From contig NC_060112.1 in assembly GCF_021155765.1 (NCBI RefSeq), positions 6,820,001-6,884,000 on the forward strand: a stretch of 64,000 bases of DNA, written 5' to 3'. Within the stretch, counting starts at the first letter, position 1; every line of letters starts with the position of its first letter. The notes beneath the pieces are model-generated. The model was not told the DNA's origin, ran no database searches, and saw only the letters and a program-made list of their open reading frames with translations. A program made the translations under genes and the position numbers. Shown piece after piece: positions 11,938 to 59,800 of the stretch. Source of the DNA: Diprion similis. Lineage: Eukaryota; Arthropoda; Insecta; Hymenoptera; Diprionidae.

Positions 11938-13570
11938 TGTATATATATAAAGTCAGCTTAGTTATTATACTACATAGAAAGTAGTATTAAGGTATGTACG
12001 CACCTCAGTAAGTGCAACTTATAACGACGCGCAAAATCCTGATTAAATAACACCATAATTTATATATACATGCGCGGCTGTATCGAAATGATTGCAATTT
12101 TTTTCTTACTATTTCTCAAACTCAATTTAGTTGATTATCTTCTTTAAAAATTTGCGCAAGTGTTTTCTGACCTGAATAATAGTAATAATAATGATAATAA
12201 TAATAATAATAATATCTTTGACTAGATAATTTGATTGAAAATTAATAAGCAAATAAAATTTCGAATTCGAATACAATAAAAAGGTACTTACGTATCCATA
12301 TATATATATATTTACTGTATACCTGCGTAGGTATATGGAAGTAATCACGCGGCTCGACCTCGTCAGAAATTCACTTTCGTAATCGAATTATTATACATGC
12401 GTATAAATTTATATCAGCTACCGAGCAGCCTGTCTTTATATTAATATACCTATAATGTATTTTATGGGTGCTAATCAAGGATTGTCGTAACTTTTAACAA
12501 CGCTTTGACGAAACCGCACTTAAATCGGATCTATATTTCTCGAATGGCAGAATTTTTAATCAATCGTAACTTATAATGTGTATTACGTATACTTGAATTT
12601 TATTGAATTGAAAACGAAAAAAGTTACAAACTAGGGACGGAAAATATGTGATTAGAGGCCCGTGAAACTTTGTGAATTGCTGTCGTTTAGGTATACTGCA
12701 GGTATTATTCAGGGTGGCCACACTCCTGGAAAGTCTGGAAAAACTGGAAATGTCAGGGGATTTAAAAGGGGTGACGAAAAACCTGGAATTGTCAGGGGGG
12801 TTTTAATTTGGTCATGGAAAAAAACTGAAAACGTCATTTTTCTATCATGGGAATTGGAATTGATTTTTTGATGTAATCAGTCAAACAAATTAGCTTGAAC
12901 TGACTTTTTTTACGTTATTTTTTTACTTCAATTTAAATTGAATCTTAACCGAATATATAGATAATAAGCTGAACGATTTGGGTTTTAGTAACTTACTAGA
13001 ACCGGGAAAATGTCGGGGAAAATTAGGTTTTAAGTACTGGAAAAACATGGAAATTGAATGGAATTTTATTTACCAAAAATTTTTGGTTACCCTGTTATCA
13101 GAATTATATAAAGAAATTAATCACGCGTTTAAACAAAGAATTTTACATATTCTATCGTACCTGATTCCTGAATTAAATATACTACTGAACATAGCAATGC
13201 GCGCGCACGTTTTATGGATTATTTTAAGCCGCACCGATGACCGTGAATGCGACATATAATCGTCAATCGAGGATTCTAACTCACTTCAACAGGCTTCGAC
13301 TTACTTTAGTTCATTAAGTCTGGTTTGCAATTCCAGCTTAATGACGGGGAGACGTGCGTGTTGATTTGATATTTATAAAAGATCGTATAATTGCAGTAAC
13401 TTCTTGCGGGCGGAAAATTTAACTGCAAGTTTTTTCAACATTTTTTTTATACAAAACAAAAACATGTACCAGTACAACTTCTTTTGAACTGTCGTAAGGT
13501 GTAATATTTTGAACTTAAAATTCTGAGTGAAGTTTTTTGTTTATTAATTATCAATTTTTTTCTATAAAAT
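11938..13570. other. Intron sequence between mobile elements
   Basis: Contains a (TAA/TGA)n run near 12181-12212 and the MITE at 12710-13094; otherwise nothing recognised. Confidence 0.5.
12710..13094. mobile_element. MITE with CAGGGTGGCC/GGTAACCCTG ends
   Basis: The left end (CAGGGTGGCCACACTCCTGG) is answered by an imperfect inverted right end (TTGGTTACCCTG). The interior carries runs of CTGGAAA, TGTCAGGG and CTGGAATTGTCAGG, which are internal repeats typical of this kind of short palindromic element and account for the Gly/Lys-rich open frames here. No clear target-site duplication is visible, so the exact ends are tentative. Confidence 0.6.
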
Positions 13571-13999
13571 TGTTACGGTACAGGGGGACGGCAGTCCATG
13601 TACCCACCCGATGATGTTGGTTCGGGTGATATTTTTGTAGGTTCTTAGTCGTCGCCGTTTTCGTTCAGGGAACGGAAAGGAAGGAACAGTAATTACAGAA
13701 TGATTATAACTTTTATTTTAATGAAGTCGATGAGGAGTAGTTGAGACAATGGTTTTGGGGAACGGGAGTTGGAGTTGAATGCAAGAGGTAAGAGCGTTGG
13801 AATCAGAGTGGGTCTCTTGCATGAGAAAATGAGCGAGGATACAGGGTAGAGGGGGATCGAAATAGCAAGGTAAGGGCGATAGCGAGTGGTGTAAGCCAAG
13901 ATGGAAATAGGATGACAAGATATGGAGTGTGGGAATGGTAGGTAAAGACAAGCGTCGAGGAAGGTGGGAGAAACGTGAGGCGGGACGTCGGACGTAACA
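13571..13999 (-). repeat. 3' LTR of the Ty3/gypsy element
   Basis: 429-bp direct repeat of 22194-22622, apparently without differences. It starts and ends with TGTTACG/CGTAACA and is flanked outside by AAAT. The overlapping open frames in it are not genes. Confidence 0.95.
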
Positions 14000-14000
14000 C

Positions 14001-14017
14001 GCCCCCCCTTCGGGAAG
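14001..14017 (-). promoter_or_regulatory. Polypurine tract
   Basis: On the minus strand a purine run (CTTCCCGAAGGGGGGG, ending in the G-run) lies directly before the 3' LTR, where the plus-strand primer for reverse transcription is expected. Confidence 0.7.
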
Positions 14018-14256
14018 AACATTCGGTGAGGGTACAGAGCCGAATGTTCGAAGGAAAACCGAATTTTTTGGGTAATGTATCGACTCACTTACGAAAGATT
14101 ACAATATAGTTTGCCTTAAAGAGTATAGCGCCTAGGGTTAATGCGCGTTTAAGCGGGTTAGTATACATTTTTAGCAGAAATGTTTTTTTTTTTTTTTTGT
14201 AACAGTTGGTATGTTCTTATAATTTAAGCGTGTAGTAGTTACATATTATAAAGGTA

Positions 14257-14466
14257 CAATTATAATTAAATTATAATTTTTTAGGGTTTTGATTGTAGAT
14301 AATATAGATACACTCAAAGTTAAATGACAATGTCAGGGGTATAATTGTAGATAGTATATATACGATTATAGTTAAATTATAGTTTTTAGGGTTTTGATTG
14401 TAGATAATATAGATACAATCAAAGTTAAATGACAATGTCAGGGGTATAATTGTAGATAGTGTATAC
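14257..14466 (-). repeat. Two-copy 105-bp tandem repeat in the element's 3' region
   Basis: Units 14257-14361 and 14362-14466 are near-identical, with GGGTTTTGATTGTAG recurring at 14284 and 14389. The tract lies between the last frame of the element and the polypurine tract. No function is evident. Confidence 0.85.
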
Positions 14467-14557
14467 GGTTATTATAATAGCGTAATTTGAGACATTTTTA
14501 TTGAATGATATTTGGGCATAACAATGGATATGTTCTTATAAATATGTAGTAGAGGGC

Positions 14558-14986
14558 TTAGTCTGTCCAGATGAAGAGGGAGTCGGAACTAGCGTCAAGG
14601 CTCTGATCGCGGGGCAGTTTACGTGGGTGTTGTCGTAGCTTGGACATTTCCATCATTTCAATTTCTGAATGAGCTCGGGGCAGCGACGAAGTGCGAGGAG
14701 ACAGGTCCTTAGGGAATGACCTATTTTCTAGGTGAGGGTGGGAAATGGCATGGTGGGAAAGGATTTGCGGTCTTGGATGACGTGAGTCGAGGTTGTGGCG
14801 TATTCGCCTGGGTTTACAGCAAGAGTATACTTTTGAGATTCTTCTAAATAATGAGAGTTTGTAGCAAAAGAAAACTGCTGAGAGGGACGCGAAGGCGATT
14901 CCGCCATAGCTGAGGCTGGTGGTGAGGCGATGCATGTTACTTTGAGTACGGTAGTGTGTGCTTAGATCGGCTGAGCGTTTGAGCAC
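14558..14986 (-). CDS. Small membrane-anchored ORF3 of the retrotransposon (envelope remnant?)
   Basis: A frame of about 142 codons downstream of pol, in the place where envelope sits in errantivirus-type gypsy elements. There is one hydrophobic stretch of about 20 residues (around GGIAFASLSAVFFCY) followed by a basic tail with CCKPRR. It lacks a signal peptide, a fusion or receptor region and glycosylation-rich ectodomain, so it could at most be the C-terminal anchor of a lost envelope. It has no good start: the frame begins after a stop near 15020 and the first internal ATG is at the MHRL segment. It might be expressed from a spliced RNA or not at all. Confidence 0.4.
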   Translation of the reverse strand: MLKRSADLSTHYRTQSNMHRLTTSLSYGGIAFASLSAVFFCYKLSLFRRISKVYSCCKPRRIRHNLDSRHPRPQILSHHAISHPHLENRSFPKDLSPRTSSLPRAHSEIEMMEMSKLRQHPRKLPRDQSLDASSDSLFIWTD

Positions 14987-15065
14987 GTCATTCAGGGCAT
15001 GAGGCGGAATATGATGCAGTTACGGGTAGATTGATAATATACGGCTGTTGACTTCTAAAGGTGGT

Positions 15066-18000
15066 TTAATTTGAATCACTTTCTTCCTGTGCTAATTTGA
15101 GTTTATTCAGATGGACAATTTTGGTCTTATGGGGGGTGATGAAAATTTCGGCATTGATATCGTCAATTATGCGCTTGATCGTATATGCTCCTTTATAGTG
15201 GTCGTCAAATTTAGATCGGGTTTCGTTTAGTAGATAGACCTTTTGGCCTGCTTCGAAATTTTGGTTATTGGTACGACGGTCGTAGTACGTCTTGGAACGG
15301 TGCTTTGCTAAAATGAGGTTAGCCGCGGCGTTTTTTCGTATGCTGGATAGGTTGGAAATTAAATCTAGAAGGAACGAATCGTAGGAACGGGTGTAAGCGC
15401 TGGCAGGGTTCGCGTCTGTCGGAAGTCTGGCATGGGAACCGAAAATTAGCTGATGGGGAGTGAAGTTAGTGCCTTCGTGCTTCGCGGTGTTATAACAGAA
15501 AATAGCAAAGCGGATGTATTCATCCCAGTCTTTACCAGCATTCGTGTAATGCTTGACGTGTTCGGTGAGAACAAGGTGACTGCGTTCTAGCGATCCGTTA
15601 GATTGTGGGCGGTAAGCTGTAGTTCGAATTTGTTTTATTTTAAAGAGTTTACAAAGTTGCTTAATGACTGTGCTCATGAAATTCTGTCCTTGGTCTGTAA
15701 GTATTGCTCGAGGGGCACCGTAACGTGTAATGTATTCTTTCGCGAATGCTGCACCTATTGTTTTGGCAGTGGCGTCGGGTAAAGGGATGGCGTCCAGAAA
15801 TTTCGTCAAGTTGCATTGTATCGTCAAAAGGTATTTGTTGTTTGATTTAGTAAGGGGGAGAGGACCAACGATGTCTAGTGCTACTTTGTCGAATGCATCG
15901 GCAGGAGTATCTGTTATCACCATCGGCAACCTGGTTTTTACTCTTACTAGTTTTTTCTTTTGGCAACTCTCACAGGTTCTTATAAAGTCTTGGATTTGCT
16001 CTTTCATGTGGGGCCAAAAATATTTTTGTCTAATGCGGTTGTATATTTTTGTGACGCCTTGATGACCGCCAATTAATGATTCGTGGCATTCTTTAATTAT
16101 TTCTTTACGTAAACATTCGTCTGGGGTGACAGTCGTGTTGCGGCAAAGCGTAATTTGAATTTGTAAGTCTGCGAAAAGGTAAGATAAGAGTTTTCGGATA
16201 ACACGAGGATCGAGTCCACCTAAACTATCGTCCGTTATTGGGAAAGCGAGGGATTTCGGAATTGAATCGGTCAAGACTGTTTTCAGTTTAGACAAGAGTT
16301 GAAAAATATCATATAGGTTGCTTTTATCTGATTCTTTTGATTTTAGTACTAGAGTAAAGATCTGTCGGCTGTTATGCTTGGATTCGATAATATCAAATTT
16401 CTGTGGACGGGGCGTCATAACTATATCTGGGTCAACGATATTATTGTGGGCAAGTTGTGATGATATGCCTTTGGTCCAAGAGCAGTCTGTTGATATAAAG
16501 TGTGCATAATTGGTTTTGAGCATCAAAAGACCATCATTGGTGTCTTTGACATTGTCAGCTACCGGTATGTCGTCCAAGTTGTCAACAAAGTTCGTGAAAT
16601 CGTGGGAGGTATCGGTCAAATCGTCGTCGACATTGGGATCAATGTCATGGTCAGGGTGTGTGGTTTCCATATCGGATTCGGATTGTCGGGCGCATGTATG
16701 GTATTCGGTATCCGTGAGCGAGTTGGAGCTGTTGTCGTTATCAGAGGCCAGTGTGGGTACTGAGGGAGGAGGCGGAGGGGGGTGAGTAGTAGAGTTCGCT
16801 GGCCTGGGGACAGCTGTTGGGCGTCTCTTAGCACGACGCGGGGGTCCTACAGGCGGGGGCATGACGACGTTCGTGGCTGGGAGGGGAGGTGGGGTCGCGA
16901 GAGGTGCGACTGATTTGGTCGGAGGTCGCGGTTTCTTACGCGGCGGACGAAGAGAGGGAGCGGGGTTACCAGATGTGGAAGGGATGGGGTCAGGTGAGGC
17001 GTTATCAACGGACACCGTTGTGTCGTCGTGGTGTGTGGGGGTTGAAAGCGGAGGGTCAAGGCGACAAACGTTGATATTCATTTTTGAATCTTTGAAAATA
17101 TAGTGGATCATTTTGCGCACCGTGCTCCATTCTAGTTTGTCGAGTCCGCAGCCTATTAACGGGATTGAGACAGATGTTACACCATCTTCTTCCAAGGTTT
17201 TCCTAAAGTTGACCAAGGTATCAAAAAAAACGTGTGGTAAGGGTTTGTCATTGTACTTTGGCTTTGTCACTAGGTTATAAATTTTTCGGTGTCCGTGAGT
17301 GGTAGAAATAACGTCAGTCACAGTCGGATTGAATTCTCTAAGTTGTTCGCGATTTATGAATTTACGTTCTCTTAGCTGTGACGCGATTCCTTTTGACATT
17401 TGGCAATCAGCTGATATGCAGTGAGCCAAATTATCTTTTTGCTGTAGTAGGTCGGCTTTTATTTCTTTAATATATTTATTACGCATAAGAGGGAACGTGT
17501 CGCATTCTATAAGGAAATCGCTATAGGAGGGGTTGTGAATGTGAGGGGAGCTAGGTAAATCGGTAGACGAATTAATGTCATCAACTTCTGAGTTCGTCTC
17601 TGGGGTTTGTAGGTCATCTGAGCTAGTTGAAGTGTCCGAAAAGTAGCTCAGGTGTGGTCTCTTACGTGGTCCAGGGTTTGTAGAGGAATTCGTTTCTCGA
17701 TGGCGTTTCGGGTAGGGATGAACCGGGTGCGGAGGTGGGATGGAGGGGGGAGGTTTAAAAGGCATTGCGGTTTCTTTGTCACTGGATTCGTCATCTGAGA
17801 GATCAGAAGAATCAGAGGGGTATATCATTTGGTAGGTGGGTTGTGAGATTTTTGGGCATTTTAGCGGGGCCGGGTTCGTAGATTCGTCTGTGGTCTGTCG
17901 AGGGCGTCGGGGGTACTGATGGGTCTCTTTGGTGCGTTTTTTCGGTTTGCTGTCAGAGGATTCGGTCGTGGGACGAGGGCGTTTTGCATCTATAGGAAGG

Positions 18001-20441
18001 ATTTGTACGACGTCAGGCGGCGTGTTTCTTGATAGAGCATCGGCGTTGACATTCGCTTTTCCCGATTTATGTTTGGTATCAAAATCGTATTCTGCTAGTT
18101 CTAGACTCCATCGTAATAAACGAGAATTAGGCTTCTTAACGCTTTTTACCCACTTGAGGGGCTCGTGGTCTGTAACTAAAGTAAATTTCTGACCGTAGAT
18201 GTAGGGGCGAAAATGGTTGATGCTCCAGTAGGCGGCTAAAAATTCTTTATCGGGCACCGAGTAATTTAATTCAGCGGATTTGAGTGCTCGGGATGCGTAC
18301 GCTACTGGTAAGTCGGCACCGTTCTTATCTTGACTCAGAACCGCACCGATGGCGAATTTTGACGCGTCGGTAGTGAGCGTAAACGGCTTACTGAAGTCCG
18401 GGTATTGGAGAATTGGTTCTTTGCATAAACAATCACGTAAGGTTTCGAAGGCAGATTGGTGTTCGGATGTCCAAATGAAAGGGGTATCCTTCTTGGTTAG
18501 GTTAGTGAGGCATTTTGCAATTTTTCCGAAATTTGGGACAAACCTGCGATAATAACCCAAAAGACCGAGGAACTGTTTAACATTTTTGGGATTTTTCGGG
18601 ACGGGATATTCTTTCACGGCTACTAACTTCCCGGGGTCAGGTCTAACTCCTGACTCAGTGATAAGGTGACCAAGGTAAACGACTTCTTTGCGCAGGAATT
18701 GGCATTTGTCTGGCTGCAGAGTCAAGCCGGCTTCAGTTAGTCTTTTCATCAATTTTCTGAATTTAATTTCATGTTCTTGTAAATTTCGAGCGTAAATAAC
18801 TATGTCATCCAAATATACGAACATCTCGTTGCCTTGTAAGCCTAGCAGGACTTGATCCATGAGCCTTTGGAACGTGGCAGGGGCGTTTTTTAGTCCGAAG
18901 GGCATTCGGGAGAATTCATAGTGACCCCGGGGCGTCGAAAACGCAGTTTTTGCACTGTGATCGGGGTGCATGGGAATTTGATGAAAGCCGGAAGCAAGGT
19001 CGAATGTAGAGAAATATTTAGCTGAGCCGAGTTGATCAAGAATTTCGGTGATGTCGGGCATTGGATAGGCGTCGCCGATTGTTTTTTCGTTGAGCTTTCG
19101 GTAGTCGATCACCATGCGCCATCGTTTATTACCGTCAATATCGGGTTTTTTGGGGACGATCCAAACCGGAGAATTATAAGGAGATGCGGAATGTTTAATA
19201 AGGTCTTGCCGAAGGAGTTTATTGACCTGGGATTCGATTTCATCTTTGTGGATTTTTGGAAAACGATATTGTTTGGTGTGAATTGGTGTGTCGTCTGTCG
19301 TGGGGATAGTGTGATGGGTTAGATTGGTATGGCCTAATTTATCTCCCGGGAGATAGAAAAGATGGTTAAATTCTGTTAGCAGGTCGAGTGTTGATTGTTT
19401 TTCGGTGTCATTTAGATGATCGAGGCACACACTATTCTTTAGTGTGTCCAATCTCTCTGACCTACTGTCAGTTAAGAGTACTGTTGCGGCGCCACGACGA
19501 GGTGCACTGTTATCAGGTATGCGGGGCTCAGGTTGCCGATGTGCGAGGTCAGTGAGCTGGCGGGGGTTGGAGGGGGGGTAATGGGGCGGACGGGATATGT
19601 GATTATTAGTGGAAAGAATTAATGAATTATTATGAGAAGTGGTTTGGGTAGGAAGGGGGGATTTTTGTCCATTATTTTTGTCAGAATTATTCGGCGGGGT
19701 AGACTTAATTTCGGGCATGGCTGTGCTCAGTGGTTCGTCGAATTCTTCCAGGGTTGCCGTTGGAGATGCTATCTCTACGACAGATTCGTTGCAATTGAAC
19801 ACGTAGGAATAAGCGATGCCGTTCTGATTTCGAACTATTGCTTCACCACAAAGAACATTGTTGCCTAAATTAATGTGTTTAAGGTAGCCTACTTTGATAT
19901 CTGGGTTTGCAACTATTATCGGGATGACCTTCGCGGTGCGGGCCTGTATTGTGATAACACGTGCGGTTTCAGGAGGAGGTTGTTCGATTTTGTTGAAGTG
20001 GATTGGCAATGAGGATCCAAGCATTACCGAGTTTGAGTTGAATGAGATAGTTGCTTTCTCTTTTCGTAAAAAGGGTTGGCCTAAAATACCGTCATGTGGG
20101 ACTGGGAATGAATCAGGGACCAAGTGAAAGGTATGGGAGTTGTTATTAAAGCGTATTTCCGTTTTTGCGATGGTTTCCGTCTTTTCGTCCGTTATACCAG
20201 TCAATGTCAAACGTTCGTCTGTGGTGCGACGTACGAAGGGCTTAACACAACTTTCTTTGATTAAGTTTACGTCTGCACCGGTGTCGATAATAAATTTAGA
20301 GATCTTTGTCAATTCAGGGGTATCGATTGAAATTAAAGGGGGATCAGCTGAAGCTGTTATTAAGATGTGTCTTGTGGATCGGAACGCTAGTTGTTTGCAT
20401 AGCTCGCGGGCGCGTTCTCCCCGCGGGCAGTGTTGCCGTTT
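15066..20441 (-). CDS. pol: Pol polyprotein of a Ty3/gypsy element with two TARG1-like macro domains
   Basis: Expressed by -1 frameshifting from gag; residues below count from the codon at 20312. Order: aspartic protease (DTGAD at 10-14); reverse transcriptase (WRMVIDYRKLN; YLDD at about 498-501); RNase H (TDAS at about 647; the domain ends at NADALSR, about 759); a basic, Pro/Ser-rich linker; macro domain 1 (about 930-1087); a second Pro-rich basic linker; macro domain 2 (about 1255-1390); integrase with an HHCC zinc finger (about 1409-1450), the DDE core (Asp about 1477, Asp about 1539, Glu about 1574) and a GPY/F-like end (YKGAYTIKRI). All usual catalytic motifs are present and the frame is uninterrupted. 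Pol is far longer than the usual 1000-1200 residues because of the inserted module. Macro domain 1 has the signature AHCIS.DC...KGI, a Lys at 1017 and GCGLD with Asp at 1058. Novelty of the arrangement could not be checked. Confidence 0.95.
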   Translation of the reverse strand, partial: KRQHCPRGERARELCKQLAFRSTRHILITASADPPLISIDTPELTKISKFIIDTGADVNLIKESCVKPFVRRTTDERLTLTGITDEKTETIAKTEIRFNNNSHTFHLVPDSFPVPHDGILGQPFLRKEKATISFNSNSVMLGSSLPIHFNKIEQPPPETARVITIQARTAKVIPIIVANPDIKVGYLKHINLGNNVLCGEAIVRNQNGIAYSYVFNCNESVVEIASPTATLEEFDEPLSTAMPEIKSTPPNNSDKNNGQKSPLPTQTTSHNNSLILSTNNHISRPPHYPPSNPRQLTDLAHRQPEPRIPDNSAPRRGAATVLLTDSRSERLDTLKNSVCLDHLNDTEKQSTLDLLTEFNHLFYLPGDKLGHTNLTHHTIPTTDDTPIHTKQYRFPKIHKDEIESQVNKLLRQDLIKHSASPYNSPVWIVPKKPDIDGNKRWRMVIDYRKLNEKTIGDAYPMPDITEILDQLGSAKYFSTFDLASGFHQIPMHPDHSAKTAFSTPRGHYEFSRMPFGLKNAPATFQRLMDQVLLGLQGNEMFVYLDDIVIYARNLQEHEIKFRKLMKRLTEAGLTLQPDKCQFLRKEVVYLGHLITESGVRPDPGKLVAVKEYPVPKNPKNVKQFLGLLGYYRRFVPNFGKIAKCLTNLTKKDTPFIWTSEHQSAFETLRDCLCKEPILQYPDFSKPFTLTTDASKFAIGAVLSQDKNGADLPVAYASRALKSAELNYSVPDKEFLAAYWSINHFRPYIYGQKFTLVTDHEPLKWVKSVKKPNSRLLRWSLELAEYDFDTKHKSGKANVNADALSRNTPPDVVQILPIDAKRPRPTTESSDSKPKKRTKETHQYPRRPRQTTDESTNPAPLKCPKISQPTYQMIYPSDSSDLSDDESSDKETAMPFKPPPSIPPPHPVHPYPKRHRETNSSTNPGPRKRPHLSYFSDTSTSSDDLQTPETNSEVDDINSSTDLPSSPHIHNPSYSDFLIECDTFPLMRNKYIKEIKADLLQQKDNLAHCISADCQMSKGIASQLRERKFINREQLREFNPTVTDVISTTHGHRKIYNLVTKPKYNDKPLPHVFFDTLVNFRKTLEEDGVTSVSIPLIGCGLDKLEWSTVRKMIHYIFKDSKMNINVCRLDPPLSTPTHHDDTTVSVDNASPDPIPSTSGNPAPSLRPPRKKPRPPTKSVAPLATPPPLPATNVVMPPPVGPPRRAKRRPTAVPRPANSTTHPPPPPPSVPTLASDNDNSSNSLTDTEYHTCARQSESDMETTHPDHDIDPNVDDDLTDTSHDFTNFVDNLDDIPVADNVKDTNDGLLMLKTNYAHFISTDCSWTKGISSQLAHNNIVDPDIVMTPRPQKFDIIESKHNSRQIFTLVLKSKESDKSNLYDIFQLLSKLKTVLTDSIPKSLAFPITDDSLGGLDPRVIRKLLSYLFADLQIQITLCRNTTVTPDECLRKEIIKECHESLIGGHQGVTKIYNRIRQKYFWPHMKEQIQDFIRTCESCQKKKLVRVKTRLPMVITDTPADAFDKVALDIVGPLPLTKSNNKYLLTIQCNLTKFLDAIPLPDATAKTIGAAFAKEYITRYGAPRAILTDQGQNFMSTVIKQLCKLFKIKQIRTTAYRPQSNGSLERSHLVLTEHVKHYTNAGKDWDEYIRFAIFCYNTAKHEGTNFTPHQLIFGSHARLPTDANPASAYTRSYDSFLLDLISNLSSIRKNAAANLILAKHRSKTYYDRRTNNQNFEAGQKVYLLNETRSKFDDHYKGAYTIKRIIDDINAEIFITPHKTKIVHLNKLKLAQEESDSN
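16141..16540 (-). other. Macro domain 2 (degenerate TARG1-like copy) within pol
   Basis: The segment aligns by eye with macro domain 1: AHFISTDC...KGISSQL, then LVLKSKESDK, then LGGLD. The GCG loop before the Asp is replaced by SLGG, and the Lys-to-Asp distance is 44 rather than 41 residues. It therefore looks like a diverged tandem duplicate, perhaps a binding-only or structural domain. It lies directly before the integrase zinc finger. Confidence 0.75.
17050..17520 (-). other. Macro domain 1 (TARG1/OARD1-like) within pol
   Basis: Encodes about 155 residues beginning near FLIECDTF and ending near INVCRLDPP. It contains the DLLQ...LAHCISADC...KGIASQL start of the ADP-ribose-binding fold, then IYNLVTKPK and IPLIGCGLDKLEW. 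The Lys of LVTK (codon 17264-17262) and the Asp of GCGLD (codon 17141-17139) are 41 residues apart, the same spacing as Lys84 and Asp125 of human TARG1. This suggests a catalytically competent ADP-ribosyl-acylester hydrolase. The assignment is from motif recognition only, without a profile search. Confidence 0.85.
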
Positions 20442-21505
20442 AAATCTTGATTCGAACTTACATGGTTTTGGTTATCACGCGGGGGAAATCTACATTGGTC
20501 TGATGTGTGGCCTCTGCGCTTACAGTTATCGCAGTACAGTTTGTCGCTTCTGCTGGGTTGGTTGCACTCATTGTAAAAGTGGCCCATTCTGCGACATTTG
20601 GTACAGTATCTTGTATTTTGCAGGCGATGGCATTCCGTGATCAGGTGACCTCGGTGGTTGCAGAATTGGCAAATAGTCGGCGAGGTCCTCGTTCGATCTG
20701 CGGGAGGTGCGAGGGTGCTTGCACCGAGCGCTTGGGCGTAGGACATGGGTTCGATACCGGGCGCTTGCTGATGCGCGTAACCAGGTGTGGGCAATGACAT
20801 TAGAGGGGGGATGAGGGAGGGGGTTATGGACACCTGAGGTGGAGGGGTATCGTTTTGGCAGGCAGAGACGGAAATTGGGGGATACATAGGTGTAAGAGGA
20901 GTACAATATTGTGCAAAGCGTTGCATTTGACGGTTATTTAACTCGGTCTCCTCGCTTTCGGCGACGCTGACGGCGATATCAAAGGTAGGGAGTGGTCTGA
21001 TGGTAGCTATTCTCCACTCTAATTCTGGTCTAAGCCCTCTAATGAATGTTCTAGCAGTGTCTTTTCTTAAGTCATTTAGCAAAGCGCTTGCTATGTCTGG
21101 CGGGTATTTTTTTTCGATAGCTTTGCTTATTTCGTTTGATATTACTCTTATTCTGCATGAGTAATCGATGACACGCTCACGCGGTTGTTGGGTAATTCTA
21201 TCTAATTGAATTGATAATTGACGTACGGGGATGTCTGGACGGTATGCTCGGCTGAGGGCCGTTATAAGGTCTTCGACGTCGTTGCAATTAATGCCTACTA
21301 AATATTGGGAAGCGGGGCCGGTAATTTTTGATTGTGCAAATTTAGCAAGGGTCATTTTGTCTGAAGCTCTAATGAGGGTTTCCACGTGGCGCAATTGTTC
21401 CACAAATTGGTCAAAAGGCATGTTGTTGCCATCGAATGCAGGGATCGTCGGTAAGACGTCTTTTACTGACCAAAAAGATGGACCGGTCTCATTAGTTGGT
21501 GCCAT
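20387..21505 (-). CDS. gag: Gag polyprotein with three CCHC zinc knuckles
   Basis: Starting at the ATG at 21505 (MAPTNETGPSFW) gives 372 residues; the frame is open further upstream but without a better start. The N-terminal two thirds is an all-helical retrotransposon capsid region of the Ty3/gypsy kind (for example SQYLVGIN... and LSRAYRPD). The C-terminal part carries three CX2CX4HX4C knuckles: CQFCNHRGHLITEC, CTKCRRMGHFYNEC and CDNCKRRGHTSDQC, for nucleic acid packaging. The frame ends at a TAG at 20387, about 50 bases after a -1 slippery site that leads into pol. Confidence 0.9.
   Translation of the reverse strand: MAPTNETGPSFWSVKDVLPTIPAFDGNNMPFDQFVEQLRHVETLIRASDKMTLAKFAQSKITGPASQYLVGINCNDVEDLITALSRAYRPDIPVRQLSIQLDRITQQPRERVIDYSCRIRVISNEISKAIEKKYPPDIASALLNDLRKDTARTFIRGLRPELEWRIATIRPLPTFDIAVSVAESEETELNNRQMQRFAQYCTPLTPMYPPISVSACQNDTPPPQVSITPSLIPPLMSLPTPGYAHQQAPGIEPMSYAQALGASTLAPPADRTRTSPTICQFCNHRGHLITECHRLQNTRYCTKCRRMGHFYNECNQPSRSDKLYCDNCKRRGHTSDQCRFPPRDNQNHVSSNQDLNGNTARGENAPASYANN
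20400..20444 (-). promoter_or_regulatory. -1 programmed frameshift site between gag and pol
   Basis: On the minus strand the heptamer T TTA AAC occupies 20444-20438 in exactly the gag frame (codon starts at 20443 and 20440). This is the canonical X XXY YYZ form. The -1 frame is open from here into pol, while gag stops 51 bases later. Two potential hairpins follow: GGCA/TGCC with a 4-base loop immediately after, then CGCGGG/CCCGCG with a 9-base loop, giving a plausible stimulatory structure. Confidence 0.8.
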
Positions 21506-21872
21506 ATCGATTTTCGTAGATGGGCAATGGGTACGGGGATGAAATATCAACTTATTACTAAGGATTACAACAAACTTACAGAGCAAAGATGAACACAAAC
21601 GCAAGGTACAGCATGGTTGTAGGCGGCTGAAGGCAGGTGAGACTTGAAGATGTGATGCACGTCGTCCGACGGCAAGAGGAGGGTGTAGGCGGGGAAGTCC
21701 GTTGCGTGTTGAAGAGTCTCGGTTTGGTGTTCCAGGTATCTGAGTGATGCCAATCTTGGGTCCAAATTCTTGTTCCAGCGTCGCAGGCGTCCAGAAACGG
21801 GTGGGGGCTAATCACAATTTTGGGTTCCAAAAGGTGATGTGTGGTATAGATCGGCTTTCGTCCGTATATTTA

Positions 21873-22158
21873 GTTCGTTGCGGGTTCTGAATTTGTCAGG
21901 TTCACACTTGATTTGCCGGCGAACACTCTTGACGTGGCTATCACTTATTGATATGATATCGGGAGTTTTGCGTATTAACACTTTTCTTGCGTCGTATATT
22001 TCCACTCGTTGCACAGTTCGTTGCGGGTCCTGAATTTGTCAGGTACGCACTTGATTTGCCGGCGAACACTGTCTACGTGGCTATCACTTATTGATATGAT
22101 ATCGGAAGTTTTGCGTATTAATACTTTTCTTGCGTAGATTTTCCGAAGCACTGAACAA
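21873..22158 (-). repeat. Two-copy 143-bp tandem repeat in the element's 5' leader
   Basis: Units 21873-22015 and 22016-22158 share GTTCGTTGCGGGT..CTGAATTTG and GATTTGCCGGCGAACACT with a few differences. They lie between the primer-binding site and gag. Confidence 0.85.
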
Positions 22159-22178
22159 AGGGTAGGTCGACGGCAAAA

Positions 22179-22190
22179 CCGCTGCCACCA
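22179..22190 (-). promoter_or_regulatory. Primer-binding site
   Basis: Three bases inside the 5' LTR, the minus strand reads TGGTGGCAGCGG, which begins with the TGG complementary to a tRNA CCA end. The tRNA species was not identified. Confidence 0.55.
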
Positions 22191-22193
22191 GAA

Positions 22194-22622
22194 TGTTACG
22201 GTACAGGGGGACGGCAGTCCATGTACCCACCCGATGATGTTGGTTCGGGTGATATTTTTGTAGGTTCTTAGTCGTCGCCGTTTTCGTTCAGGGAACGGAA
22301 AGGAAGGAACAGTAATTACAGAATGATTATAACTTTTATTTTAATGAAGTCGATGAGGAGTAGTTGAGACAATGGTTTTGGGGAACGGGAGTTGGAGTTG
22401 AATGCAAGAGGTAAGAGCGTTGGAATCAGAGTGGGTCTCTTGCATGAGAAAATGAGCGAGGATACAGGGTAGAGGGGGATCGAAATAGCAAGGTAAGGGC
22501 GATAGCGAGTGGTGTAAGCCAAGATGGAAATAGGATGACAAGATATGGAGTGTGGGAATGGTAGGTAAAGACAAGCGTCGAGGAAGGTGGGAGAAACGTG
22601 AGGCGGGACGTCGGACGTAACA
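22194..22622 (-). repeat. 5' LTR of the Ty3/gypsy element
   Basis: 429 bp, apparently identical to 13571-13999. In the element's direction it starts TGTTACGTCC and ends CCGTAACA, and is flanked outside by AAAT. Confidence 0.95.
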
Positions 22623-24074
22623 AAATAATACCACAGTTTCCTCATTTATTCACTGATTTTAGAAAAACTTCATTATTATTATTATACCGATGAAGGATAA
22701 ACGCATCTTTAAACCCCGGAGGATAAATGGTAATAATATGGCTGGACTTTTAAAAGCAAACACAAACTTCCTACCGTGTAATTCAATGCTAATTTTCTGC
22801 CCAACCAATGTTCAGAAATTGTTGAACAATTGCGATAAAAAATTGACTAAAACAGTCTTTTGACCGTTGTTTTTTTTTTTTTTATGGTTTTATTTTCATA
22901 ATCTGCATCGTCAGTCTTCTCATTCTGTTTGTCTTTTCTTCCTTCATTGTTAATAAATCCTTACAAAATATTCATCCATATTGACTTTACAACGATTTCG
23001 CGTTGTAAAATTTCATATTTATTGTTAGTTAATTGCACACTGTGATTATTATCACTGAACATCTTTATTTTGCATTACGGTGGGAAAAATTAACACCTAC
23101 GGAGATGCGATCGGGGTTTGAATAAAAAAAACACAGTATAAAAGCAATGTCAATATAGAATAAAACGCTCGTTATACGTATCACATACGGATAATTGAAT
23201 CGCGTTGAATTGAATTATCGATTATAGTAAATCACGATTTATATTTTGCATGCGCTCGTCTTATAAAGCATGCGATTATAATATTGATATAATATTAATG
23301 ATTTCCCGTGAAGAATAAATCAAATCGCGACGAAAATAACTGGACATTATTATTGCCTGGTGTTTCGTTGACGTTTTTTTTTTCTTTGTCAAATTATCGC
23401 GCCATATTAGTTTGAAAAAATTGTCAGATTATTTTCTGGCGTATTTATAAAATATTATTATCGTATTACACATACTTGTTGCAATAAATTAAAATAATTA
23501 CGAGACTGGTGAATATTATACGTTTGAAAAGCAACAGAAATGATGTTGAAATTCCAATCGTTTTACCTATTTCCGGGTTTTCTTTCGATGATTTATTATT
23601 CTCATTAGCGGTTTATACATTCATTATTTACCCTTTGATATTAAACATAAAAAATCATCCGTTAATATTCATAAATAACATATAAAACGCCCATCCAATC
23701 CTTTTGACAACGGATTATAAGTCGCGATATGCAGGATTGGATCGTTTGGCAAATAAAATATTCGTACCCACCAGTTTTTATCACTATACATATATTTACA
23801 CGTTGGCCAACTGTAGGCAATGATATAAAAAGTTGATAAGGTTTTTCTTCTTACGTCCTAGTTATTATTTCAAAGTAACCTCATTAGTTATGCACGTAAG
23901 ATTTTGCTATTGCCAAAATTACTTCTTCATTTATCATTACACTTGTATACGTGCGTACGTGTGTGGGTTTTCGGTCGGTTTCATTTACACCTATGTGATG
24001 ACAATCCTCAGACAGCTAGAAAAAGTTGTCTGAAGGATGCATCGCGTGAACTTATATACGTATTATATCCTAAA

Positions 24075-56864: not shown

Positions 56865-59800
56865 TTACTTAAAAATGACCAACGGATTCAATAAGAAATT
56901 CAGCACGGATTTAACACCAAGATAAATGTCTTTCATTACAGATGTAAATGTTACCTGATATCTGTATCGTCTAAACGATTTTAACTTTGTCGTGTGACAA
57001 ACATGACAGCCAACTTCTTCCAATTGTAAATGGGGCCGGTTTCCACCAAGCAAAGATTCACCCTCAAATTCAGTGTTGGTCAGCTTACCAACAAACCATA
57101 TTTTATCACCGGAGTAAATGTTCAGGCTAAAGTTAGTGAAGGAATGATCGGCAATCAGAATTAGCTCGCCATTGCTGCCCCAAATACCGCTTTTTATTTT
57201 TACTGAGATCTCAAATTCATATTTATTCCATGCGGACAAGTGACATTTGTTTCGTCTTTTCTGAATATTTAACATAGTCCTGCAGTTTTGTTTCCTCAAC
57301 TCGTCACCCGAGGTACAATTATCTTCGTAAGCTTCTCCATAAGAACAAGTTAAGGGTATTCTTATCGCATCTGGTAACTTGTTGAATACTTTTCCAAGAT
57401 CGTTTTTTATAGATCTGAGTTTTACTTTTGTCACATATCCCTCCCACGACACAGAGACACCTTCCAAATGTGCACATTTCACTTGTACCTGTGCCAGCGA
57501 CGACGTCTCTTCCCAAGCTGGCTGGTGACAATAGTTCTGATACTGTTCCCATGACAATGTCGGCATCGCTTCGTACATGGCTGATTCCAGCTCACGTTTG
57601 TTACCCGCAAGAATTGACCAACCAAGCCATAGTCCAGCGGCGATTCCCATTGTGATCTGAAAAATTGTTAAAGAAACGATGAAATCTGCTTGTGACGACA
57701 AACGAGGGTAAGGGTGAGTAGCTTTCCAGAATTTCATACCTGTGTAACAGTCATGATTTTGTTGTATCGCTGACTTCGTGTTTTCTTGACATACCACGAT
57801 ATTAGAAATGGCAGTATTCCTAGAACGGCGGTGATCCCTGCTCTCAGCAGAAGATCACTTTCCGGTAGATACTTCGCTGCCGCAATGATTGGCAGAGCAA
57901 TCGACGCGATTCCTGCGATAGGAAGAAAGAGAACCATCCCGACTATCGCCAGAGCTCCTCTGATCAAACCGTACCAAGTTGCACCTTGGGAACTGAGTAT
58001 GGCGATTTGCCACCAGCTGAGTGTGACGCAGTGAGGAATAAGTGTTTTGTATGTACCACGCCAGCTGTCCCTGGCTGCCATTTTGGCAAACACAGCAGGA
58101 ATCAAGAGATAAAACACAGCACGAAAGTTCAGGCAAAATTCGATGCCATTTCCCACGACATATGACGCGAAAGTCGGTACTCGTATGTCAATGAATCTCC
58201 AACCTTGAGCAACGACCATGTCAGTTTCATATGGATATTTAGCCAGGACGTGTACAGCAAAGCTGAAGAGCGCCAGGAAGTCCGGAAACCTTGAACTATC
58301 TTTCCACATGAAGTTCAAGAGCGTTGTTAGCGTCAGTACAAATGCTATAATGGTGAATTCCGACTGCGGTGTCCATTGCTGGGCTATGATGGGATAAATC
58401 ATGAGATTTGTCAGCAGTGCTAGGAAGAAGTGACCGTAGGGTTTCAAATTGTTGCGGCAGTACTGATACTCTGCTTCTTCCGGATTCAAGTTGCCTCCCG
58501 AGTAACTGAGAAACAAACCCGACCAGATTCGGAAATCGGTCAACTCTCGTTTTGTTTGCAACATTTGAAACGTCGCTACGACCATAACGACAAATGACAA
58601 ATAGTACAGTGTCATGGGTATAAAAAGTATCAAGCTTTCGGTACCAAACAAGGAATAAAGCAGAAGTAACAACAGCGTGTGAATGTTGGAAGTGAAGAAT
58701 ATCTTTTTGAATATTGGAGTTCCTCTGCGGCCGAGCAACTGAACTAGCCATATGTAAAGCCTCTTAAGCGAAGCCAATGGATGCAACAGAGGTCTTTGCA
58801 GCAGCGGAATCGTGTCTAAAGCTATTTGCGAAGGTTCGACCAAACATATGACTCGAGAAACGATTGGAAGCGATCCGCGAGCATAACTTGCAGCGGCTGA
58901 GACCAACGCTGCTTCAGTTAGCTTCTCTCCTTGATGCTCGGACCAATCTGTGGATGAAAAGAAAATGAGAGTCGTAATTGCAAAACTTGAATTTGATGCG
59001 GGTCCTGAGATAGAAATTCAAGATAAATTGTTACAGGTACCTGGCATCGAATCTGAGGATCTTTCTCCTTCTTTGACCGGCAAAGGATCGTCCGGAAATT
59101 CATCCCTTGGAGACGAATCGCCAAAGCTGTCTCCCAGTGATTTTTGTACATTGATGAACGATGATTCATTGGAACTAGAACAGCTTGCTCTGTTTGTTGA
59201 GGGAAAGGCTACGTCTCGCATTCTCCTTTGCAGTTGTTCTGTAGTGATGAATTCCTCGCCATTGGATAAACTGTTGAAGAAGAGAGGTGATATATTTTAT
59301 TTTTTTCTGCCAAACTCAAGTTAGCACTAGCACAATTTCTCGTTTACCTCGTAAACATTTCCCTAGCTGCCCTTCTGGCGAGTTTTTCATCCTGTGACAT
59401 GTCCAGGCAACTCTTAACATCGTAATAATTGTGCTCTGTGATTCCCTTGCCTGTGGCTAAACATTTCCTCAGAATATCGGTCGCTTCCAAGTTTCCCTGT
59501 TCTGAAGCTTTGGTGAGCCAATAAACTCCCAATTTTGCATTCTCCTCTTTGTCGACATCCAGTTCTGGGGGCAAAATATGACATAAAGTATAGTTGTAAT
59601 CAAGATTTTCCATTAATAACAAATGAAAAAACTACTACTGGAGTTGTGTTGTTTTGAGCAAGAGGAACTAGGAAAAATGAACAAAAAACCCTACACTAAA
59701 GTTGTCTCATCGAACAGAACATCTTTAAATTTTAAAACTCACCGCAGCGTTCCTCCAAGAGTTGCTTAGCGAGAACAACTTGGGACTCTGGACATCCATC

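Follow-up and report, generated by a model that had tools for sequence, protein, structure and literature searches.

Alphaviruses and rubella virus carry domains of the macro fold, and the macro domains of viruses suggest that ADP-ribosylation serves as an antiviral defence. Among long terminal repeat (LTR) retroelements, macro domains have been described from teleost epsilon-like endogenous retroviruses, whose sequences occasionally carry reading frames for macro domain proteins (Basta et al. 2009, via the accessible part of PMC4977317). Here we describe a Ty3/gypsy (Metaviridae) element in a 64,000-nucleotide stretch of the Diprion similis genome (Hymenoptera, Diprionidae; contig NC_060112.1, positions 6,820,001 to 6,884,000; the whole stretch is hereafter called the window, and its own numbering is used), whose pol frame contains two macro domains, A and B, between RNase H and integrase. 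The element resembles other members of Ty3/gypsy in its LTRs, its order of protease, reverse transcriptase (RT), RNase H and integrase, its CCHC-bearing gag and its RT, which is nearest to that of Ty3; it differs from them in the two macro domains. The closest described relative of the domains themselves is human TARG1/OARD1 (C6orf130; ALC1-like class), which is the closest solved sequence and shares with macro A the predicted fold and a Lys/Asp dyad with a spacing of 41 residues. Unlike human TARG1, the element domain sits in a retroelement polyprotein, is duplicated and intronless, and reads MSKGIA for MGAGIA. Moreover, the same source presents the fish retroviral macro domains as additional reading frames, whereas the domain described here lies inside pol, is of the TARG1 class and occurs in tandem in an insect.

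A preliminary description, made from the sequence without database searches, had placed a TARG1-like macro domain in an intact pol frame between RNase H and integrase. The frame is indeed open from stop to stop over 1801 amino acids (aa; 15066–20471, or 15066–20312 from the first TTG; minus strand, as are all features of the element given below), and Pfam places RNase H (residues 614–742, 18087–18473; RT_RNaseH and RT_RNaseH_2) and integrase (residues 1398–1569) on either side of the domain, macro A (17052–17528). The motifs first reported (AHCIS.DC...KGI, IYNLVTK and GCGLD) are found as AHCISADC at residues 963–970, KGI from residue 974, IYNLVTK at 1011–1017 and GCGLD at 1054–1058; Lys1017 (codon 17262–17264) and Asp1058 (codon 17139–17141) lie 41 residues apart, as had been stated, and both align with the Lys84/Asp125 dyad of TARG1. 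A phmmer search of the PDB with macro A returned TARG1 first (E 4.6e-20), the next molecule having E 0.0049, and a macro profile matched 10 chains of known structure, TARG1 with E 6e-38. The score of macro A against human TARG1, 73.6 bits, was reached by none of 300 shuffles (maximum 5.3), which together with the profile matches rules out a chance motif match. Domains of the alphavirus, rubella virus or Escherichia coli YmdB type (YmdB being of MacroD type) all scored clearly below TARG1. Structure prediction, which had been named as a check, gave a fold closest to TARG1, with the TARG1–ADP-ribose complex as a top match. In the pocket loops HCISAD is retained and GAGIA is changed to SKGIA. A host gene interrupted by the element was ruled out, since macro A sits within the open pol frame and is found together with pol in further copies. 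Taken together, sequence comparison, structure prediction and the relatives described below support the assignment of macro A to the TARG1-like macro domains and its place in a Ty3/gypsy Pol between RNase H and integrase. Macro A would most likely be an active hydrolase that removes ADP-ribose from acidic residues, and possibly also from nucleic acid.

The preliminary description recognised this domain alone, and missed a second, degenerate TARG1-like copy, macro B (16134–16559), as well as several further families and another insertion site. B of the window, like that of the four relatives read whose single frame extends into integrase (P0002, P0003, F3 and F4, see below), adjoins the H2C2 zinc-binding domain of the integrase (residues 1398–1454, 15951–16121; Pfam E 3.3e-22); the integrase core (rve) occupies residues 1479–1569 (15606–15878; Pfam E 3.5e-8). 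The predicted structure of B retains the macro fold. Across five aligned B domains the Lys is retained in all (Lys1324 in the window, codon 16341–16343, aligning with the catalytic Lys of A), the Asp in four, having been lost in the window copy, and the pocket loop is degenerate; in family F2 a Thr stands at the Lys position. Macro B thus departs from TARG1 in its catalytic dyad and pocket loops, and is probably a binding or structural module of the integrase in which parts of the ADP-ribose pocket have been lost.

We searched the 269-Mb D. similis assembly with macro A; 150 of the 243 candidates were scored, yielding 150 matches. Among the matches listed, 35 copies including the window are near full length (no fewer than 150 of the 159 residues, identity 84% or higher), eight of them with an identical domain and eight of the 35 in an open frame of 1801–1802 aa. 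The order RNase H–A–B–integrase is found in a single frame in families F1 (the window), F3 (L095) and F4 (L090), and, with the frame broken, in copies of F2 (L097) and F5 (L096, where only the start of B is readable, by eye). Six copies of F3 have frames of 1841 aa, whilst at least 11 matches were assigned to F4 by similarity, with open frames of up to 1724 aa and five of the loci retrieved. Macro A is 48–49% identical to human TARG1 in F4 and 50% in F5, and RT–RNase H identity among F1, F3, F4 and F5 is 64–76%, F2 being comparable over 58 residues only. The order is unusual in F6 (C14:3852400–3861400; L098, L099 and L100). After RNase H come a stretch resembling B by eye, integrase, a degenerate macro domain (27% identical to human TARG1, E 4.9e-10), what looks by eye like a second protease, and a stretch resembling macro A (45%, E 2.2e-33) that is interrupted by one stop. 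Further downstream F6 has a fragment that matches the fusion glycoprotein of Monjiviricetes viruses (E 8.4e-28), which in an insect LTR element amounts to an env-like gene. The host itself has two TARG1-like genes in tandem (C2:13509262–13512665); the matches of each are split over two exons, and therefore the element macro domains are not host exons.

Outside D. similis, the A–B part of pol returned five proteins among 7397 candidates. P0002 (Athalia rosae) and P0003 contain RNase H, A, B and integrase sequence, so that the order RNase H–macro–integrase, for which a survey had been proposed, is found in these sawfly-type elements as well as in F3 and F4. P0004 (Neodiprion virginianus) contains RNase H and A, its gene model stopping before B and integrase; A. 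rosae and N. virginianus are both tenthredinoid sawflies. In P0005 and P0006 the macro domain sits between a protease-like domain and RT. A search with P0006 gave five matches among 111 candidates, itself included, and in the proteins found this way (P0007–P0010) the macro domain also precedes RT (by eye), P0009 beginning after the protease. The clusters of P0006, P0008 and P0010 comprise 617, 498 and 108 member sequences. In the macro–RT interval of P0005 (residues 374–503) a DGNCG...HW pattern looks by eye like an OTU-type cysteine peptidase, for which Pfam gave no support.

The macro tree places the P0005 type (100/99) and the P0006 type (100/100) in clades of their own, both outside the sawfly A+B clade (100/98). 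A larger family tree unites B of F1–F4, P0002 and P0003 in one clade (100/95), but not the A domains: A of F4–F6 groups with sequences on the TARG1 side (96/82) and A of F1–F3 lies outside that group, a split that may mean replacement or merely unequal rates. In RT–RNase H the window is closest to Ty3 (306 bits, the best among solved structures), followed by P0005 (277) and P0006 (153), and Ty3 does not appear among the 10 chains that the macro profile matched. Because the insertion site differs and the macro-less Ty3 is nearer to the window than P0005 and P0006 are, these data suggest separate captures; alternatively, there may have been one old capture, then moves and losses. The uptake of a cellular TARG1-class hydrolase is likely, in keeping with the host capture first proposed, but the trees leave the donor gene undecided. 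An origin from a phage-like gene was rejected, as none of 50 viral-contig loci with TARG1-like macro domains (L001–L050) matched, or lay near a match to, any of three RT queries or an integrase query in tblastn. P0042 of A. rosae, which bears the annotation 'ADP-ribose glycohydrolase OARD1-like', clusters in the macro tree with A domains carried by elements and is therefore probably a retrotransposon fragment rather than a host TARG1, a warning for the annotation of such gene models.

Between the window and its relatives macro A is 49–53% identical, RT–RNase H 70–74% and B 35–41% (two relatives). Linker 1 (17529–18032), which precedes A and is rich in Pro, Ser and Thr with repeated basic clusters (KRPR...KKRTK), is 34–40% identical over 128–151 residues; in P0004 its basic clusters recur at a spacing of 26 residues. 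The fast-evolving linker 2 (16560–17051) aligns over 34 residues only, and with one of three relatives. For selection we compared the window with copies at 30 loci (L062 being the window's own place), counting identical sequences once. Each distinct variant in stop-free copies was counted once and variants were treated as independent; 4, 4, 1, 1 and 5 copies with stops were dropped for linker 1, A, linker 2, B and the integrase part, the last being present at 28 of the 30 loci. The nonsynonymous/synonymous ratio was 0.47 (p 0.0016) for A, 0.59 (p 0.018) for B and 0.43 (p 0.0028) for the integrase part, pointing to moderate purifying selection, and near neutral, 0.86 (p 0.27), for linker 2.

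At roughly even confidence, we propose that a captured TARG1-class domain was duplicated in tandem, A acting as an eraser of PARP marks and B as an integrase module. A Ty3/gypsy lineage would have taken up the cellular ADP-ribosyl hydrolase between RNase H and integrase; after tandem duplication copy A, a putative hydrolase, would have kept the TARG1 fold, most pocket motifs and the dyad, whilst copy B, attached to the integrase zinc domain, would have lost part of the ADP-ribose pocket. Made in Gag-Pol, both domains would be carried in the particle and then to the nucleus with integrase, as the basic clusters before A, which we take to resemble nuclear localisation signals, may indicate. There A would strip PARP-made marks from the integration complex or from element chromatin, to the benefit of an element thus relieved of PARP-based repression. 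Of the eight mobile elements that were significantly misregulated in parp-1 mutant flies, five were up, and ten more, nine of them of the gypsy superfamily, were up short of the false-discovery limit (accessible part of PMC7712786).

Several points weigh against this proposal. The other three of the eight fly elements were down, and the authors allow that de-repression is possibly indirect (PMC7712786, same part). Window macro A misses the gathering score of Pfam Macro PF01661 (E 0.0053, 17.1 against 22 bits); in the profile check suggested earlier TARG1 was matched strongly, and the Pfam cut-off was passed by the homologous domains of F4 (35.3 bits) and, barely, F3 (22.4) in the same genome. 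The TARG1 loop MGAGIA is altered to MSKGIA, a change seen also in several stand-alone relatives, and in P0010, a relative from another group, the catalytic Asp site is degenerate by eye; the enzyme is therefore not retained in every lineage. Linker 1, which is no macro domain, has a ratio as low as that of A (0.51, p 0.0013). When variants present in at least two copies are considered, neither A (0.53, p 0.13) nor B (0.49, p 0.11) reaches significance, which linker 1 (0.38, p 0.029) and the integrase part (0.06, p 3.5e-5) do. On this measure A is constrained, but below integrase and not above linker 1. The eraser role of A is a predicted one, and A and B may be separated from integrase by protease cleavage.

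A wider version of the eraser proposal, which we advance more tentatively, is that Ty3/gypsy-type elements acquired TARG1-class hydrolases perhaps two or three separate times, that the duplicated sawfly pair would serve the integrase complex as eraser and reader, PARP marks being removed or read for integration or expression, and that LTR retrotransposons and hosts would thus repeatedly have come into conflict over ADP-ribosylation. Chromodomains steer integration in chromoviruses, and A and B ahead of integrase could likewise act as readers by binding chromatin or repair factors that carry ADP-ribose. Binding of ADP-ribose is a property of macro folds; the structural match to the TARG1–ADP-ribose complex and the place of B beside H2C2 in the window and its four relatives are consistent with this, as are the predicted fold and mild constraint of B, yet a mere reader would have no use for the full dyad of A, and B has lost pocket residues, and we regard reading without erasing as rather unlikely. 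Still less probable is that the substrate of A is not protein but ADP-ribosylated DNA or RNA of the element itself: TARG1 and DarG both reverse thymidine-linked ADP-ribosylation, and DarG is the sole NCBIfam match of A (E 4e-10, but 39.5 bits, far below the cut-off of 250), whereas the Lys/Asp dyad of A is reportedly absent from DarG (accessible part of PMC9411070). A single capture, with the domain nowadays tolerated as structural filler in a long spacer, would suit the freely differing linkers, the degenerate B and moderate ratios that linker 1 shares with A, but is very unlikely given that the fold motifs and catalytic residues of A persist across families differing by 24–36% in RT–RNase H, that neighbouring linker 2 is near neutral and that separate elements carry a macro domain before RT.

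No report of a macro domain in Ty3/gypsy pol was found among the literature matches listed, in a search with subscription papers largely outside its reach; term searches of two recent papers, on insect endogenous retroviruses and on the Troyka lineage (PMC12992720, PMC12440569), found no mention of macro domains or ADP-ribose under the terms used. On this basis the arrangement is apparently new: TARG1-class macro domains within an insect pol, in tandem and adjoining integrase, together with a different insertion site in further elements. We limit the claim to this variant because fish LTR sequences already carry macro reading frames (PMC4977317, same part). The case considered here for a PARP role against transposons rests on expression changes in PARP mutants, possibly indirect ones; an intact multi-copy family encoding a TARG1-like domain beside integrase makes the question directly testable, and the natural pair of a putatively catalytic A and a degenerate B allows their roles to be compared.

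The whole element (13571–22622, 9052 bp) has 5′ (22194–22622) and 3′ (13571–13999) LTRs of 429 bp each, with TG...CA ends and AAAT target site duplications at 13567–13570 and 22623–22626; because the LTRs are 100% identical, with such ends and AAAT on both flanks, the insertion is young. A putative primer binding site (22179–22193), assigned by position and sequence, directly follows the 5′ LTR, and a polypurine tract (14000–14012) directly precedes the 3′ LTR. Three CCHC knuckles were read by eye in gag (20387–21604), which has a weak match to Pfam Retrotrans_gag (E 0.031); pol, which is read in the −1 frame with respect to gag, overlaps the end of gag. RT (18666–19154; RVT_1, E 1.3e-38), RNase H and integrase pass the Pfam cut-offs, with the aspartic protease (20046–20300; RVP, E 0.00084) slightly under. 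In its TG...CA LTRs, short target duplication and domain order the element is a Ty3/gypsy LTR retrotransposon. An open reading frame downstream of pol (14558–14986) has no Pfam match. Tandem repeats of 143 bp occur in the 5′ leader (21872–22135) and of 105 bp after pol (14255–14465). Elsewhere in the window, an open frame on the minus strand (56868–57854) with two Wolframin domains is a host gene.
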